Below, in pieces: positions 17,818 to 25,130 of a DNA stretch of 64,000 nt (positions are counted from its first letter, which is position 1; every line of letters starts with the position of its first letter). Source of the DNA: Acidithiobacillus ferridurans (GTDB lineage Bacteria > Pseudomonadota > Gammaproteobacteria > Acidithiobacillales > Acidithiobacillaceae); assembly GCF_003966655.1 (NCBI RefSeq), contig NZ_AP018795.1:186001-250000 (forward strand), given 5' to 3'. The position numbers and the translations under genes are program-made. The notes below the pieces were generated by a model. It had not been told where the DNA came from and did no database searches. It was given only the letters and a program-made list of their open reading frames with translations.

Positions 17818-18339
17818 TTACGGGGTGACAGCCCCATTTTGGGTGATAATGACGCCAGTTGTGGTGGCGGCATGGATAAATCCTTCGGCACTACAGGCAC
17901 GGGCAATGACGGTACCAAGACTGCCCGTGCAGTTTGTGGTGCTGACTTGCACGCTTACCTGCTGTGGCCCTGTCTGGCTGATGGTGGCGGCATCAATGAG
18001 CACCTGCCCGCATTTCCCCGCTTGGGTGCCAGGTGCGGCAATAAAAGCCGGCGTGCCAGAACCATATACCGGGTCAGCCACGTCATGGGCTGCCTGTCCG
18101 TTCAGGGTGCTGTAAATATTGGTACTCACAGCGTTATTGCTGGCCGCTAACGCATTGGTCACCGCATCCACCGCTATTTTCAGATTACCCGATACCGTTT
18201 GCGCCTTGGCGGTTTCGATGTACGCAAAATACTGCGGAATCGCAATGGCTGCGAGAATCCCGATAATGGCAATGACGATCATTAGTTCGATGAGGGTGAA
18301 ACCGCTGTTCCTCTGGATTTTTATTGTTTGACTGCGCAT
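17818..18339 (-). CDS. Type IV major-type pilin (second of two tandem copies)
   Basis: The ATG at 18339 follows GGAAAGG and gives a 173-residue prepilin with a basic leader and [20 protein letters not shown] (residues 13-32), including the Glu at mature position 5. Two cysteine pairs can be seen: CGQVL and TNCTGS, and a later RACSAEG. The C-terminal part is Thr/Ser/Ala-rich. It lies 97 bases downstream of a second pilin with almost the same first 50 residues but a different body. I cannot tell which copy is the main pilus subunit. Confidence 0.88.
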   Translation of the reverse strand: MRSQTIKIQRNSGFTLIELMIVIAIIGILAAIAIPQYFAYIETAKAQTVSGNLKIAVDAVTNALAASNNAVSTNIYSTLNGQAAHDVADPVYGSGTPAFIAAPGTQAGKCGQVLIDAATISQTGPQQVSVQVSTTNCTGSLGTVIARACSAEGFIHAATTTGVIITQNGAVTP

Positions 18340-18436: not shown

Positions 18437-18931
18437 TTAGTTATATGACACAGCACCGTTTTGATCGATATTTGCTGTGATAGCATTGCTACTAGCAGAT
18501 ATCCCTTGCGCAGTTAATGCATTAGTTATTTTAGTTGGAAGGCTACCGGGGCAGCTACTATAATCAACTTTGAATGCTACCGATTGATTTGGCAATACAG
18601 AAATAGTTGCAACTGATGAAGGTGTAGCACTAGTTGCACTTGCTGTGCCTGCTGTGAATACCGCGCATCCTTCAACGCCCGTGTAGTTAGTTGGCATTGC
18701 AATCGTCGTTTCCTGTCCGGCAGCACCTGCAGCTACTGCGGCCGTACCCTGTGTAACCAATTGATGGAAATCTTGCGTGATGGTTGTAGCTTTCGATGTC
18801 TCAATATATTGCTCATACTGCGGAATGGCGATGGCCGCCAGAATGCCGATGATGGCAATGACGATCATCAGTTCGATGAGGGTGAAACCGGCTTCGGCGC
18901 TGGCCTTGGCCTTCTTGACTAGCATACTCAT
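18437..18931 (-). CDS. Type IV major-type pilin (first of two tandem copies)
   Basis: GGAGGATCGCAC directly precedes the ATG at 18931. The 164-residue prepilin has a basic leader and [20 protein letters not shown] (residues 15-34), then [20 protein letters not shown], which parallels the other copy. The body has a cysteine pair (GVEGCAVF and YSSCPGS). DNA for the C-terminal two thirds is clearly more A+T-rich than the conserved 5' part and than the neighbouring genes, as expected if the variable domain was acquired by recombination. A possible sigma-54 promoter lies about 60 bases upstream. Confidence 0.9.
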
Positions 18932-18991
18932 GTGCGATCCTCCATGGGGTAAATGAGTACCCACGGTGTTTCTGTGGGCTACATAAAGCGT

Positions 18992-19007
18992 TACAGTTTT
19001 CGTGCCA
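18992..19007 (-). promoter_or_regulatory. Possible sigma-54 promoter of the pilin genes
   Basis: On the minus strand TGGCACG is followed after four bases by CTGTAA. The -24 element matches the sigma-54 consensus fully and the -12 element partly (GT in place of GC at the right spacing). Pilin genes of Pseudomonas depend on sigma-54 and PilR, which supports the reading. A leader of about 50 bases would result. Confidence 0.45.
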
Positions 19008-19116
19008 AAGCGATCTGAAGTCGCCCTGAATCTATTTTATCTTATTGATTTTAATTGATAAACAATATTTATTATGAATTCTCTACCACACTTACCCATG
19101 GTTTTCACAAACTTAT

Positions 19117-19336
19117 TTCCGTGTTTTTCACGGAAATGGAAGATATCCTTCCTTGTCTTCCACGGAAATGAAAGTATACTTCCCTGATGTTCACGGAAAC
19201 CGGACCGGTACTTCCTTATCTTCCACGGAAATGGAATATTGCTTCCATGTTTTTCACGGAAATAATGGGTATCCTTCCTGGATGATCACGGAAACCGGAA
19301 ATTGTTTCCGTGTTCTTCAAGGAAACCAAAATATGG
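19117..19336 (+). repeat. Seven tandem 31/32-bp repeats, helically phased
   Basis: Seven units each start TTCC and contain a conserved CACGGAAA core; the best units are inverted repeats, TTCCGTG then CACGGAA. The core begins at 19129, 19161, 19192, 19224, 19255, 19287 and 19318, so the spacing alternates 32, 31, 32, 31, 32, 31 and averages 31.5 bp, three turns of B-DNA. The last unit is degenerate (CAAGGAAA) and ends 10 bases before the next gene's ATG. The layout fits an array of binding sites on one DNA face, such as an operator or iterons. Confidence 0.9.
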
Positions 19337-19346
19337 AGTTGACACC

Positions 19347-19952
19347 ATGACACCATCGGACGACGCAAGCCTTCTCGTCTGTGCCCAAACCGCCGCGTTA
19401 CTCACTGGCAAAACGGATCGAACCATTATCAATTGGCTGGAATCCGGCGCGATCAAGGGCAAGACGGTTCCTGCCGGGCATCTTCCGCGCGGCCAGACGT
19501 GGAAAATAGACCTGTCCAGCATGGCTGAACACATTCCAACCGAACTGACTGGCGAATTCATGGAGAGCGTCCAGAAAGCAGAAGCAGGGGACGCGCGAGA
19601 AACCACCAACGTGGCCACCTATTTTTCCATGTCGGGCGCCGATAAGATCGCCGTGAGTTGGTTTGAATTGGCGGCCAAGAGGGGCGATGCCGATGCCATG
19701 AACTGGCTATGGGACAGTTATTACCATGGATACGGGGTAGAACCGGATTTCGCCGTAGCCATACAGTGGCTAGGGAAAGCGGCGAAACAGGGGTCGATGA
19801 TGGCGCAATCCACCGTCGAAAGTTTGCGTAAAATAGACGCTGTACTCAGAGAGCAACAAAAGGATGAACATCATGACATTCTTGAAGATATAAAAAGACT
19901 GGCGAATATGAATCATATCCCCTCACAGGGAAGACCAAGAGGCGTTCAATGA
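19347..19952 (+). CDS. HTH plus Sel1-repeat protein downstream of the repeat array
   Basis: ATGGAG lies 10 bases before the ATG. Residues 5-55 of 201 look like an excisionase/MerR-type helix-turn-helix: AALLTGKTDRTIINWLESGA followed by GQTWKIDLSS. Residues 90-165 contain Sel1-like repeats, AVSWFELAAKRGDADAMNWL and AIQWLGKAAKQGSMMAQSTV. The end is charged. Sel1 repeats mediate protein contacts and the HTH suggests DNA binding. The protein may bind the array in its own leader; no target is known. The HTH/Sel1 assignment rests on residue patterns only. Confidence 0.7.
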   Translation: MTPSDDASLLVCAQTAALLTGKTDRTIINWLESGAIKGKTVPAGHLPRGQTWKIDLSSMAEHIPTELTGEFMESVQKAEAGDARETTNVATYFSMSGADKIAVSWFELAAKRGDADAMNWLWDSYYHGYGVEPDFAVAIQWLGKAAKQGSMMAQSTVESLRKIDAVLREQQKDEHHDILEDIKRLANMNHIPSQGRPRGVQ

Positions 19953-20625: not shown

Positions 20626-20919
20626 CTATTTCTTCTTCTGAATTGCTCCGGCATCAACGCTCATCTGAGTAGCCTCAGAAACCTCAACCAACGCCATCCT
20701 TGATAAACCCACCATAACGGTTGGCATGACCTTGTCAGGACTAGGACCGGCCTGAACAACAGAAAAAGCAAACTCTGGCGCGAGCTCGTAGTGACCGGTT
20801 TTCTTTTTGAAATGCTTGATAAGAATGGTTGTCAGCATCCTGATGTCGATATGCTCTCCAACAACGGTTCTGGAAATCACTTTTTTAGTGGCGCCGTTCA
20901 TTATTGCCCCCATCATCAT
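20626..20919 (-). CDS. Hypothetical protein at the 3' end of the hicAB operon
   Basis: The 97-residue product reads as a coherent protein (DIRMLTTILIKHFKKKTGHY, PEFAFSVVQAGPSPDKVMP) and overlaps the end of hicB; a start at 20901 is also possible. I do not recognise it. Its stop abuts the hipA remnant precisely, so it may itself be cut at the end. A third gene in a hicAB operon is unusual. Confidence 0.45.
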   Translation of the reverse strand: MMMGAIMNGATKKVISRTVVGEHIDIRMLTTILIKHFKKKTGHYELAPEFAFSVVQAGPSPDKVMPTVMVGLSRMALVEVSEATQMSVDAGAIQKKK

Positions 20920-21352
20920 CCGATTGCATCGCTAGAGACCACTTCCAATCGTCTTGAGGCACCTTTTCCCACTGGTTACCCGTTAGAAAAGATCCATTTT
21001 GTATGGTTGATTTTGATCTATTCTCAAAGAACAAGTCGATCGCTTTACATATGGTCTCGTTTACGCTACATCCTTCTTTGCTAGCAGAGAATGCGATATT
21101 TCTATGTCTTTCAGAGCCGATGCGCACGTTTAGTGTACCGCTGTATGCTTTGTTCGGTTCCACATTGGCGCGTTTGCAATATTCCAAATACTCATCTATT
21201 GCGCTGCGAAATGCAGCTTCGATTGCAGAAGCGTCGCTGGCTTCAAAAGTAATCAAGCTATTGATATGCAGCACCCTGCCGAAAAGAATACAGTCTTCCG
21301 AACTATATTCGATGGATGCTTGATAGCCATTGTACTCGATGATGTTGCCCAT
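20885..21352 (-). CDS. hicB: HicB-type antitoxin with ribbon-helix-helix end
   Basis: The 155-residue protein has the partial RNase-H-like HicB domain in residues 1-75 (EYNGYQASIEYSSEDCILFG, then SAIDEYLEYCKR). The following segment, GTLNVRIGSERHRNIAFSAS then SVNETICKAIDLFF, is a ribbon-helix-helix DNA-binding domain. A tail of about 45 extra residues follows. The ATG overlaps the hicA stop by one base (TAATG), so the toxin gene comes first, as is usual for hicAB. Confidence 0.85.
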   Translation of the reverse strand: MGNIIEYNGYQASIEYSSEDCILFGRVLHINSLITFEASDASAIEAAFRSAIDEYLEYCKRANVEPNKAYSGTLNVRIGSERHRNIAFSASKEGCSVNETICKAIDLFFENRSKSTIQNGSFLTGNQWEKVPQDDWKWSLAMQSDDDGGNNERRH

Positions 21353-21612
21353 TACAGAAGCCCCTTCTCCTCTAAAAATTTTCTGATCTCCCTCATTTGG
21401 TAACCCTTGAGTATAGGGGTGGGATGCGGTCGGCAGGTCCAAATCACTACCGACGGATCGGATTGGCATACAAAACGGCAATGTGACCCGCCTCCGGCAT
21501 GATCTAGATGGAAGTCCAGGGAACCAAGTAACCTTACCAGTTCATCCCAAGCGAAGTCTTTCGGTTGCGGTGTTGCGCAAAAACGATCCTTCAGTTTGTC
21601 CTGTCTCGTCAT
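21352..21612 (-). CDS. hicA: HicA mRNA interferase toxin
   Basis: The 86-residue protein matches HicA: WDELVRLLGSLDFHLDHAGG, then GSHCRFVC with the catalytic His in the GSH motif, and RPHPTPILKGYQMREIRKFL near the end. HicA binds and cleaves mRNA through a double-stranded-RNA-binding-like fold. It precedes hicB and is followed by it with one base of overlap. Confidence 0.88.
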   Translation of the reverse strand: MTRQDKLKDRFCATPQPKDFAWDELVRLLGSLDFHLDHAGGGSHCRFVCQSDPSVVIWTCRPHPTPILKGYQMREIRKFLEEKGLL

Positions 21613-22590: not shown

Positions 22591-23376
22591 TTAAGAATGG
22601 GTGTTTTTGGCTCCTTTCGCAATGGTGTTTTTGGGGGATTCCGGGAGCGGTCGTGGGGCGCGAAAACTATCGCCTTCCAGGATCAGTCGATAGGCGCCGT
22701 GGCGTAGCCGATCCAGTGTGGCTACCCCGAGCATGCGGTTGGCCGGGAAGACGTCCCCCCACTCGGCGAAGTCGAGATTACTGGTCAGCATGGTAGAAAC
22801 CCGTTCGTAACGTTCGGCGATGAGGTCGTGGAAGTCCTCATCATGGGGCGGGCGCATGGGTTTGAGTCCGAAGTCATCGATGATAAGCAGGGTTACCTTG
22901 GCGAGTTGGCGGAAGCGCCGGTCAAAGCCACCGGTGGCCCGCGCCGCATGCAGGGAGCCCACCAGATCACCTTGGGTGATAAAGAGCACGTCCACCCCCT
23001 GGCGGATGGCACAATGCCCCAGCGCCTGGGCGAGATGGCTCTTGCCGGTGCCACAGGGCCCGACGATCAGGATAGGTGCCTGCTCCTGCAGGTAGCGACC
23101 CGTAGCCAGATCATGCACCAGAGAGCGGTTCAGGTTCGGTAACCGGTCAAAGGCGAAGTCTTCCAGGGTTTTGTGATTCCGGAAGTGGGCCTGACGCAGG
23201 AGGGTGTCGAATTTCCGTTGGTCCCGGCGGGCCACTTCATCCTGCAGGAGCATGGCGAGGAACTCGGTATAGGCCATTTGACCATCCACCGCTTGCCGAT
23301 TACGAGCTTCCAGGGAATCCAGGATACCGGACAGGCGCAGGGCGCGAAGATTACTGCTCAACTCTTGGGTTTGCAT
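22591..23376 (-). CDS. istB: IS21-family helper ATPase IstB
   Basis: The 261-residue protein has a Walker A motif, GPCGTGKSHLAQALG (about 104-118), Walker B LLIIDDFGL (about 166-174), and a C-terminal end SPKNTIAKGAKNTHS. It is an AAA+ ATPase that activates the IstA transposase and selects targets. I chose the ATG at 23376 because AAAGGAATT precedes it; an upstream TTG at 23391 overlaps istA. Translation is probably coupled to istA. Confidence 0.93.
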   Translation of the reverse strand: MQTQELSSNLRALRLSGILDSLEARNRQAVDGQMAYTEFLAMLLQDEVARRDQRKFDTLLRQAHFRNHKTLEDFAFDRLPNLNRSLVHDLATGRYLQEQAPILIVGPCGTGKSHLAQALGHCAIRQGVDVLFITQGDLVGSLHAARATGGFDRRFRQLAKVTLLIIDDFGLKPMRPPHDEDFHDLIAERYERVSTMLTSNLDFAEWGDVFPANRMLGVATLDRLRHGAYRLILEGDSFRAPRPLPESPKNTIAKGAKNTHS

Positions 23377-23387
23377 CAGAATTCCTT

Positions 23388-24911
23388 TCAATGAAATAGC
23401 GTAGCGCTGTCGCGCAGAAAGCGACCGCCACTGGTATAGGTGCTTCCGGATTCGGGAGTTACGGGCGACAACGGCTCTTGATCCAAGCCTTTCTTGAGGG
23501 TCTGAGCGATCGCCCCATAACGCGGATTACTGAAGCGCAAAGCCCGTGCGCAGGCCGCCTCCAGCCGTTGAGGGGTGTGCTTGTCCCGGAGTCGCAGGAT
23601 GTTCTGTACGGTGCGCAGATTGACCAGCACGCGATCGGCAAAGAGCTGGTGAACGACGCCGTAACAGTGCGGTCCGATAGCCTCCGCCATCCGCAGGCAC
23701 CACTGGATATCCTGACTCTGCCAGGCCTGTGCTTCTGGCGGCATGTGGTCGGCCACGGTGGAGGCGGTGCCGTGCTGGAACAGCCGGGGATGGGTGGCGA
23801 CTAATTCATGTTCCTGGTAAATCCGGATGGTGGTATCGGTAGCCCGCAACCAGAGCTGTTGTCCTATCAGACGGAAGGGAACGGAGTAGAAGCAATAGGC
23901 ATATTGGACGTGAGCATCCCGGTGCACCTTGGGTTGCTTCCACTCGGAGATCTCGGGAGGCGTCTCCGGTAGGCGCTGCAAGAGGGGTTTCTCCACCTCG
24001 ACGAACTGGGTGAGAGGCGCCTGACGGGTAGTGCCGTGAATTCGATGGCCCGCCTCTGTTCGGATCCACTCCTGAAGCTGGCGATTGGCATCGTCGCGGT
24101 CACGGAAATCGCGCAGGGGCAGGAAGGCTTTTTTGATAAATTTGACCCCTGACTCCACGATTCCTTTTTTGGCAGGATCATGTGGAGGGCAAGCATCGAT
24201 CTTGAACAGGTATCCTTCGGCGCATTCAGCATAAGAACGCTGGACCGTGGGGTCGTTGATGCAGGCCTTGGTGATGGCGCACTTGGCGTTATCAATGATG
24301 ATTCGACCCGGAACACCACCAAACCATTGGAAGGCATGGCGGTGACAGGCCAGCCAGGTCATCGTCGTCTGATTCCAGACAATCTCGGCATACTGATGCC
24401 GGGACCAGCAGAGGGTTATGACGAAGAACCAGGTCTTGCGGATCTCTCCGGTCACCGGATCGATCATGGCGGGGCCAGCGCCGAAGTCCACCTGCGCGGC
24501 CTCGCCGGGTGCAAAAATGAGGCGCATAGTGGCATCGGGCACCTTCACCGGTGCGACACGCAGCAGCACGCGACGCACTGCAGAGTAGCTTCCGGTGTAC
24601 CCGTGATTGCGCACCAGGGCAGCGTGAATGGTAGTGCCCTGTATGCCTTCAGCAGCCCACTTGGCGATTTGCTCCTCATGGTCTTTGAGGGTGGACACAC
24701 ACTGGGCAGGCACGGCCTGCTGGCGGTGCTGCTGCAGGATGGCGAGCGCGCAGTCGTCGGGTAAAGGCTGCTGGGGATCGAGCCAGCCGTGCTGCGCAGC
24801 CTGATTACGTAGGGCACCCAGTTTCTTGCGCCCCATGAGTCCGGAACGGGCGATCTCTCGGTCCCGATCCCCTTGGCGCATCCGCACCAGGATTTGGCGA
24901 ATCGTAAACAT
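23388..24911 (-). CDS. istA: IS21-family transposase IstA
   Basis: CGGAGG stands six bases before the ATG at 24911, giving 507 residues; an ATG at 24932 is also possible. The N-terminus has a helix-turn-helix (RQGDRDREIARSGLMGRKKL). The integrase core follows with DFGAGP near residue 142 (first Asp), RIIIDNAKCAI near 205 (second Asp) and KKGIVESGVKFIKK near 245 (Glu). These three acidic residues form the DDE active site. The protein looks complete. Confidence 0.93.
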   Translation of the reverse strand: MFTIRQILVRMRQGDRDREIARSGLMGRKKLGALRNQAAQHGWLDPQQPLPDDCALAILQQHRQQAVPAQCVSTLKDHEEQIAKWAAEGIQGTTIHAALVRNHGYTGSYSAVRRVLLRVAPVKVPDATMRLIFAPGEAAQVDFGAGPAMIDPVTGEIRKTWFFVITLCWSRHQYAEIVWNQTTMTWLACHRHAFQWFGGVPGRIIIDNAKCAITKACINDPTVQRSYAECAEGYLFKIDACPPHDPAKKGIVESGVKFIKKAFLPLRDFRDRDDANRQLQEWIRTEAGHRIHGTTRQAPLTQFVEVEKPLLQRLPETPPEISEWKQPKVHRDAHVQYAYCFYSVPFRLIGQQLWLRATDTTIRIYQEHELVATHPRLFQHGTASTVADHMPPEAQAWQSQDIQWCLRMAEAIGPHCYGVVHQLFADRVLVNLRTVQNILRLRDKHTPQRLEAACARALRFSNPRYGAIAQTLKKGLDQEPLSPVTPESGSTYTSGGRFLRDSATLFH

Positions 24912-25130
24912 CTCAAACCTCCGATTACTCATGGTCACCCCCCAAAAGCTGGGAGGGTAACCGATCCAAGGGAAGTTCAAGACCCTACTGAAGCACTATG
25001 TGGGTGGCGCCATTACGCCGACTCCGAACTGGCTCCTTTATGCCGATCCGGAAGTGGCGCCATTACGCCGATCCCAAGGTGGCGCCATTACGCCGACTAC
25101 GGTTTGGCTCCATATTGCCGATCCGTGACA

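Follow-up and report, generated by a model that had tools for sequence, protein, structure and literature searches.

The window, by which we mean the whole 64,000-nt stretch of Acidithiobacillus ferridurans DNA analysed here, contains a helically phased array of seven 21-bp imperfect palindromes (19116..19325, no strand assigned). It sits between a minus-strand type IV pilin gene and a plus-strand gene for a protein with a helix-turn-helix (HTH) and Sel1-like repeats, here called HTH-Sel1, and fills much of the gap between them. With a probability of roughly 0.66, the HTH-Sel1 protein would control the pilin promoter from an enhancer position through this array, and in many species its own gene too. 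The reading draws on what can be observed in the sequences of the window and its relatives, namely the arrays and their phasing, the divergent pilin with its sigma54-like element, the match between recognition helix and half-site, and the anchoring of the arrays to the pilin. An earlier note, made from the window's letters alone, had offered an operator array of the linked HTH protein as one possibility; the phasing and the half-sites that change with the recognition helix speak for that proposal, which had overlooked the divergent sigma54-like pilin.

The palindromic unit consists of an 8-bp left arm, a 5-bp loop and an 8-bp right arm (TTTCCGTG-N5-CACGGAAA). Operator 1 (TTTCCGTG-ttttt-CACGGAAA, 19116..19136) is the one nearest the pilin and fits the half-site consensus at 16/16 arm positions; it is followed by operators 2 (19148..19168), 3 (19179..19199), 4 (19211..19231), 5 (19242..19262), 6 (19274..19294) and 7 (19305..19325), the last lying nearest the HTH-Sel1 gene, and none of the seven is assigned a strand. 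The earlier note had counted seven repeats alternating 32 and 31 bp in 19117-19336, a span that the palindromes themselves correct to 19116-19325. The mapped starts agree (32, 31, 32, 31, 32, 31; mean 31.5 bp), as does the palindrome-array score of 36, compared with a maximum of 14 among 200 dinucleotide shuffles, 0/200 of which come near. The imperfect palindrome that it described was likewise found, with the refinement that the left halves are degenerate and the right halves nearly invariant (CACGGAAA, or CAAGGAAA in the seventh unit): mean pairwise identity among the seven units is 0.96 for the right arm, 0.77 for the left arm, 0.52 for the loop and 0.35 for the linker. The spacing was thus kept while the linkers diverged. 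The array does adjoin the HTH-Sel1 gene as had been said, at a distance of 21 bp from the end of the last palindrome to the likely start codon and not 10 bp.

A 20-base array pattern, searched on both strands of the window with ≤3 mismatches, gave 10 matches, all inside the array (0.34 expected). In the whole 2.92-Mb genome, the same pattern with ≤2 mismatches gave 32 matches, nine of them in the array, and no second array. The 23 matches outside are scattered, one with one mismatch (992206) and 22 with two, and the reversed-pattern control gave 12. The search in one relative (G004), whose pattern is its own reverse complement and thus finds the same places on both strands, returned 16 places; two were array sites, and the other 14 (two with one mismatch) compare with three in the control. 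Since scattered single sites exceed the control in both of these genomes, the operators may not be private to the array.

The divergent neighbour of the array is a type IV pilin gene (18437..18931, minus strand, start codon by eye) with the methylation motif GFTLIELM (N_methyl 1.7e-8). Upstream of it, on the same strand, is the sigma54-like -24/-12 element TGGCACGAAAACTGTA (18992..19007), matching 9/11 consensus positions. Such an element (consensus TGGCAC-N5-TTGCW) was found at 21/21 pilin-linked loci of the family, 79-97 bp from the pilin ATG and with 8-11/11 positions matched; the mean is 9.7/11 versus 6.7 in shuffles, and 0/100 shuffled sets equal it. The pilin promoter is thus putatively of the sigma54 type, where the element is no proof of sigma54 use. 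Downstream of the pilin lies a second pilin-like gene (17818..18339, minus strand, N_methyl 8.6e-10), and the pilus cluster continues on the same strand with a PilC-like gene (T2SSF 3.3e-56), two minor-pilin-like genes recognized by N_methyl, the larger also matching PilW below the cut-off, and PilY1 (1.7e-33). The 14 window proteins scanned comprise pilus genes, HicAB, HTH-Sel1, a histidine kinase, an efflux pump and some unmatched proteins. To the right of the HTH-Sel1 gene are a minus-strand HicB (4.7e-13) and HicA (6e-8) pair at 20885-21612, an IS21-like istB/istA pair at 22591-24980 (by eye) and a tandem repeat at 25004-25096 (period 25, 3.8 copies).

The HTH-Sel1 gene (19347..19952, plus strand, likely ATG at 19347) encodes the 201-residue protein for which the earlier note had predicted an HTH. 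The AlphaFold2 model supports that prediction: it places helices at residues 13-20 and 24-33, strands at 38-42 and 50-55 and a further helix at 56-62, that is, an HTH followed by a beta-hairpin wing. The pLDDT is 91 for the whole protein (18 sequences) and 85 for the HTH domain alone, with the same elements both ways. The winged HTH would thus span residues ~10-62, with Sel1-like helical repeats from residue ~69; residues 24-33 form the recognition helix, in which the variable residues of the window's protein are I28 and N29. The Sel1 repeat (PF08238) is above its gathering score (2.6e-8, 34.5 bits versus 30.7), and a PDB profile matches the Sel1 part at 4.2e-49. Of the profiles for a MerR-like/excisionase winged HTH, Pfam HTH_17 is below its cut-off in the window's protein (E 0.16, 12.7 bits versus 27), and TIGR01764 (excise) matches 4/18 relatives, at best 3.9e-4, and not the window's protein. 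The best fold matches of the HTH domain are the phage Pukovnik Xis (4j2n, E 0.026, probability 1.00) and BldC bound to DNA (6ama, E 0.12), with none at E≤0.001; fold matches of the whole protein fall mostly on its Sel1 repeats. A Pfam scan of the HTH-Sel1 protein gave no sigma54-activation domain.

A search of other genomes for the phased array and its neighbours, which had been proposed as a check, found that the array beside a pilin and an HTH-Sel1 gene is kept and that the half-site sequence differs. The HTH-Sel1 protein is present in 24/29 genomes of the family, at 30 places. On named contigs, profile A1 found 43 loci; the 14 near relatives were 11 from Acidithiobacillus and three from unclassified Proteobacteria MAG contigs, and most of the other 29 match the Sel1 part. 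By these named matches, the family is centred on Acidithiobacillus. In a sample of 369 genomes from the class, profile A1 detected the protein in five at E≤1e-18, of which two belong to the window's family and one is matched in the Sel1 part only; profile A2 detected it in four.

An intact HTH motif, judged by pattern, was present at 25 of the 30 places, and at 21 of these 25 a divergent pilin lies 292-633 bp away. Among the five places outside the pattern, an HTH can be read by eye at L107 and L108, both of which face a divergent pilin, L111 is without its N-terminus, and L113 and L114 are partial. Arrays were sought with 8-bp arms and one loop length per locus, against shuffles of the same region, a procedure that replaced a fixed-small-loop palindrome scan and an 8-mer count. 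At 18 of the 21 pilin-linked loci the array beat all 20 shuffles; at the other three (L086, L098, L112) a single shuffle among the 20 scored as high or higher. The further pilin-linked locus L107 scored 14, with a maximum of 10 in 20 shuffles. Judged from these scores, nearly all pilin-linked loci carry their own array with a differing half-site: the window has TTTCCGTG, relatives have TTTCCACG, TTTCATCG, TTCATCGT, CTTCATAG, TTCAACGT, TGTCGCCC, TGTCGCGG, AATGTCAC, GATGTCCC, TCTACCGA and CATGGCGC, and L107 has CATGTCGC. At L108 the pilin is 1.1 kb off and the array is weak (1/30 shuffles reaches the score), and L106 has neither an array nor a pilin within ~8 kb upstream. Three loci considered as lacking both pilin and array (L094, L100, L101) were rejected in that role: each is divergent from a pilin, at 4.4, 1.7 and 1.8 kb respectively, and has its array beside that pilin.

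An Acidithiobacillus MAG (L111/L042, NZ_JAGDVS010000097.1) encodes the protein closest to that of the window, with 74% identity. It is without its first ~21 residues and the whole intergenic array, such that the pilin and HTH frames abut; this gap is either a deletion or an assembly error.

In a second family (f107), an HTH-Sel1 match at E≤1e-15 was found in 11/47 genomes, at 14 places, with a divergent pilin motif at eight of the 12 places examined. At L115 (G357) no pilin motif was found in the frames inspected. The gene start was misplaced for L121, L123 and L125, and the score of L123, above its shuffles, was therefore set aside. Six loci were read closely: L122, L126 and L127 exceeded all 20 shuffles, and L116, L125 and L128 did not. 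The former three share the same divergent pilin/HTH-Sel1 pair, with palindromes of the TGTGCC or TGCCGA type.

The helical phasing claimed for the window holds in relatives as well. Neighbouring sites at representative loci are spaced by 20, 30-34, 41-44, 52 and 61-66 bp, values that gather around a period of 10.5-11 bp: the 27 spacings, each counted once within its locus, give R=0.72 and, at 10.5, a mean phase of 0.5 bp. The set comes from 15 of 16 representative loci, L104 giving none at the threshold used. Put through the same procedure, 61 spacings from shuffled regions gave R 0.13, and only 26% of them fall within 2 bp of a 10.5-bp multiple, as against 20/27 of the real ones. Using one spacing per locus (15 loci), the phasing has p=4e-4, and an earlier hand-made spacing list gave a similar result. 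Like sites thus lie at multiples of ~10.5 bp, as in a helically phased operator array.

Tandem phased repeats also occur in plasmid iterons and partition sites, and the earlier note had allowed for an iteron set of a lost plasmid or a partition site. Neither proposal finds support, since most of the family keeps the layout beside the pilin and the 14 window proteins scanned include no Rep or ParA-like one. A functionless repeat is hard to square with an array that is kept beside the pilin across the family, has retained its spacing over diverged linkers and has no second copy in the genome. We consider the chance that the array is any of these three to be close to negligible.

The half-sites vary together with the recognition helix of the linked protein. 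Residues 28 and 29 are paired with half-sites as follows: IN with TTTCCGTG, NN with TTTCCACG, HN with TTCATCG-like sites, LR with TGTCGTCG, QR with TGTCGC, YR with TGTCAC or TGTCCC, and QH with TGGCGC. Taken by residue 29, N goes with TTC at 7/7 loci, R with TGTC at 6/7 and H with TGGC at 1/1. L112 departs from this code when the register is set automatically, though it has a longer palindrome, TGTCTACC. With Sel1-domain distance removed, the partial Mantel correlation between half-site and residues 28/29 is 0.80 for 14 representative loci in a hand-set register, 0.63 for the same 14 in an automatic register and 0.59 for 15 loci, with p=5e-5 in each run, the minimum possible with 20000 permutations. 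The half-sites therefore follow two recognition-helix residues beyond protein-wide divergence. For example, L085 and L092 differ in residues and in half-site despite being close (0.46 changes per column), and L095 and L107 agree in residues and in half-site despite being distant (3.34 changes per column). Independent switches of the recognition residues on the tree amount to one or two pairs. A sign test would need more, and the case for covariation is thus built on the Mantel tests over related loci.

These results also bear on a role for the palindromes in RNA, as hairpins of a leader transcript. The array is foldable, at -74 kcal/mol for 230 nt (a raw value without a shuffle control), and there are two terminator-like stems where 0.5 are expected. 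As the spacings track the DNA helix in many species and the half-sites track a DNA-binding helix, we regard RNA hairpins as very improbable.

The position of the arrays is tied to the pilin. In all 21 pilin-linked loci, 104-152.5 bp separate the sigma54-like element from the pilin-side operator upstream of it. Among 13 representatives this distance has a spread of 17 bp; on the other side, the distance between the HTH-side operator and the ATG of the HTH gene has a spread of 79 bp, or 38 bp if L097 is left out. Two weak outer sites of L097 and one of L104 were dropped beforehand. In three genomes (G016, G014 and G010) inserted DNA separates the array from the HTH-Sel1 gene, which is 1.7-4.4 kb off, and the array remains 224-226 bp from the pilin ATG (0/30 shuffles each), just as it is 224.5-225.5 bp away at L087-L090. 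This constant distance despite the inserted DNA argues that the array belongs to the pilin promoter. In G016 the insertion carries an antitoxin-like ORF (MazE, slightly under the cut-off), in G014 Phd/YefM (2.6e-9) with a PIN-like ORF (by eye), and in G010 a Phd-like ORF similar to that of G014 (by eye). Toxin-antitoxin-like ORFs between array and HTH-Sel1 gene are seen at L178, L171, L097 and L108, those of L097 and L108 being PIN-like and BrnT-like (by eye).

The same distances have to be weighed against the idea that the array is an autoregulatory operator of the HTH-Sel1 gene only, with the pilin as a bystander. The end of the array 21 bp before that gene would suit this, as would the extended -10 sequences (TGCTA-type) found between or beside operators in 6/21 pilin-linked loci. 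There is none in the window, where two sigma70-like sites occur in 18900-19400 (1.0 expected). The distance is tighter on the pilin side, however, and the array stays with the pilin where inserted DNA separates the HTH gene, which makes autoregulation as its sole function improbable. As the array holds its distance to the pilin and not to the HTH gene, the pilin is probably the main target of the HTH-Sel1 protein.

An enhancer position raises a further alternative, that PilR, a sigma54 activator, uses the palindromes as its enhancer sites, the HTH-Sel1 protein being a mere neighbour. The 104-152.5 bp between array and sigma54-like element would fit, and half-sites of several species contain TGTC, which we take to be part of the Pseudomonas PilR site, although nothing to that effect was found in the open-licence literature. 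The window's genome does have a PilR (L139), preceded by a PilS-like gene and followed by a PilD-like gene (by eye). Its frame (G000:C1:1196499-1197824, L139/L145) is open far beyond the HTH, to 644 aa, and overlaps the PilD-like gene; in relatives PilR has 448-502 aa in 22/24 cases, the other two being partial.

PilR matches were found in 25/29 genomes, and the recognition helix could be read in 24 of the 25. It varies between clades, but not in step with the half-sites. For example, the PilR core SLQSL co-occurs with TTTCCGTG in the window's genome (G000), TGTCGTCG-like sites in G010 and G014, TTCAACGT in G007 and TGTCGC in G006, G017, G018 and G021. TTCA-type half-sites co-occur with both SLQSL (G007) and CPQSF (G003, G004, G005, G011), and G000, G010 and G014 have the PilR sequence GISLQSLDLRLHR in common but not their half-sites. 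In addition, a single PilR match stands against two arrays of different geometry or sequence in both G005 and G026.

The DNA-binding domain of PilR is also weak. HTH_8 scored 24.6, 26.0 and 25.9 bits (cut-off 22) in three of five PilRs, 13.8 bits in the fourth and had no match in the fifth, these fragments stopping at or near the end of the model (39/42 positions where matched), which may lower the score slightly. By comparison, five further sigma54 activators from the genome that holds the window, taken from 12 found and chosen for an Arg-rich helix or a clear end, so not all at random, scored 54.0, 40.0, 43.0, 45.2 and 37.5 bits. The PilRs of the family (L145-L168) have an unusual, weak Fis-type HTH, with an Arg directly after the GIS-like turn in 0/24 helices. 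Taken together, the half-sites, the paired arrays and the weak HTH_8 leave little probability for an array of PilR sites.

In the mechanism we propose for control by the HTH-Sel1 protein, each 21-22 bp palindrome would be bound by this protein, probably as a dimer. The operators share one helix face, for which reason we suggest that the dimers line up as a cooperative row. This row would begin 104-152.5 bp upstream of the sigma54-like element, in the zone of enhancer-binding activators, and its main job would probably be control of pilin transcription because it sits at that position. It could shape the contact of PilR with the pilin promoter by either blocking or helping it. Repression and activation have about even odds, the weak DNA-binding domain of PilR offsetting what would otherwise favour repression. 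The HTH-Sel1 protein would also repress itself in those species that have the array at the promoter of its own gene.

A bolder form of this proposal makes the arrays self-contained pilin switches whose code has been repeatedly rewritten. Each HTH-Sel1 protein would co-diverge with its phased array, such that two modules in one genome (G005, G026) could run two pilins separately. At its boldest, the row would be a platform that brings PilR to the promoter: PilR would have partly lost its own DNA binding, and would be recruited via the Sel1 repeats and aimed by the sites of its partner. The weak HTH_8 of PilR is at most a lead to such a partner-aimed activator. As a joint claim we hold this bolder form to be rather unlikely.

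If PilR does lean on the HTH-Sel1 protein, this would be a new way of aiming a sigma54 activator. The type IV pili of acidophiles gain a candidate dedicated regulator, none having been found in the literature searched. Moreover, the ~15 protein/operator pairs are a natural series along which a winged HTH has changed its specificity and kept the geometry of its sites, which allows direct swap tests of DNA recognition and helical phasing.

A winged HTH, Sel1 repeats, phased operators and a pilin promoter of sigma54-like type are each of a known kind. No account of them combined into a co-diverging pilin module was found in the open-licence literature, and the combination is probably an undescribed switch for the control of pilus genes. 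In titles and abstract openings of that literature, no paper on an HTH-Sel1 pilin regulator or such arrays was found, and 'regulat' and 'sel1' occur 0 times in a word search of PMC11016768. The upstream activator sequences of PilR/Npa, as given in PMC6528607, resemble the array in lying upstream of the -24/-12 promoter of a type IV pilin. The present system differs in that the HTH-Sel1 protein gave no match to a sigma54-activation domain, its gene adjoins the sites, and the sites vary between species with the protein. Small winged-HTH proteins of the BldC/Xis type are the best fold matches of the HTH domain, with weak E-values. According to PMC5859096, BldC forms cooperative rows on repeated DNA sites that are direct repeats, head to tail. 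It has 68 residues; the HTH-Sel1 protein differs in its Sel1 domain, and its putative sites in being palindromes at a spacing of 31.5 bp. Sel1-repeat proteins of the PDB (6ok3, 4bwr, 6deh) share the C-terminal repeats, but the matches to them span the repeats alone, and the HTH-Sel1 protein has a winged HTH ahead of these. Helically phased multi-operator arrays with a divergent regulator, in which palindromes are repeated on one face of the helix, are the remaining comparison. The present arrays are like them in having a regulator gene divergent from its target and repeated palindromes on one face, and unlike them in that there are ≤7 sites, the spacing ranges from 2 to 6 turns between loci, and the half-sites diverge among close relatives.
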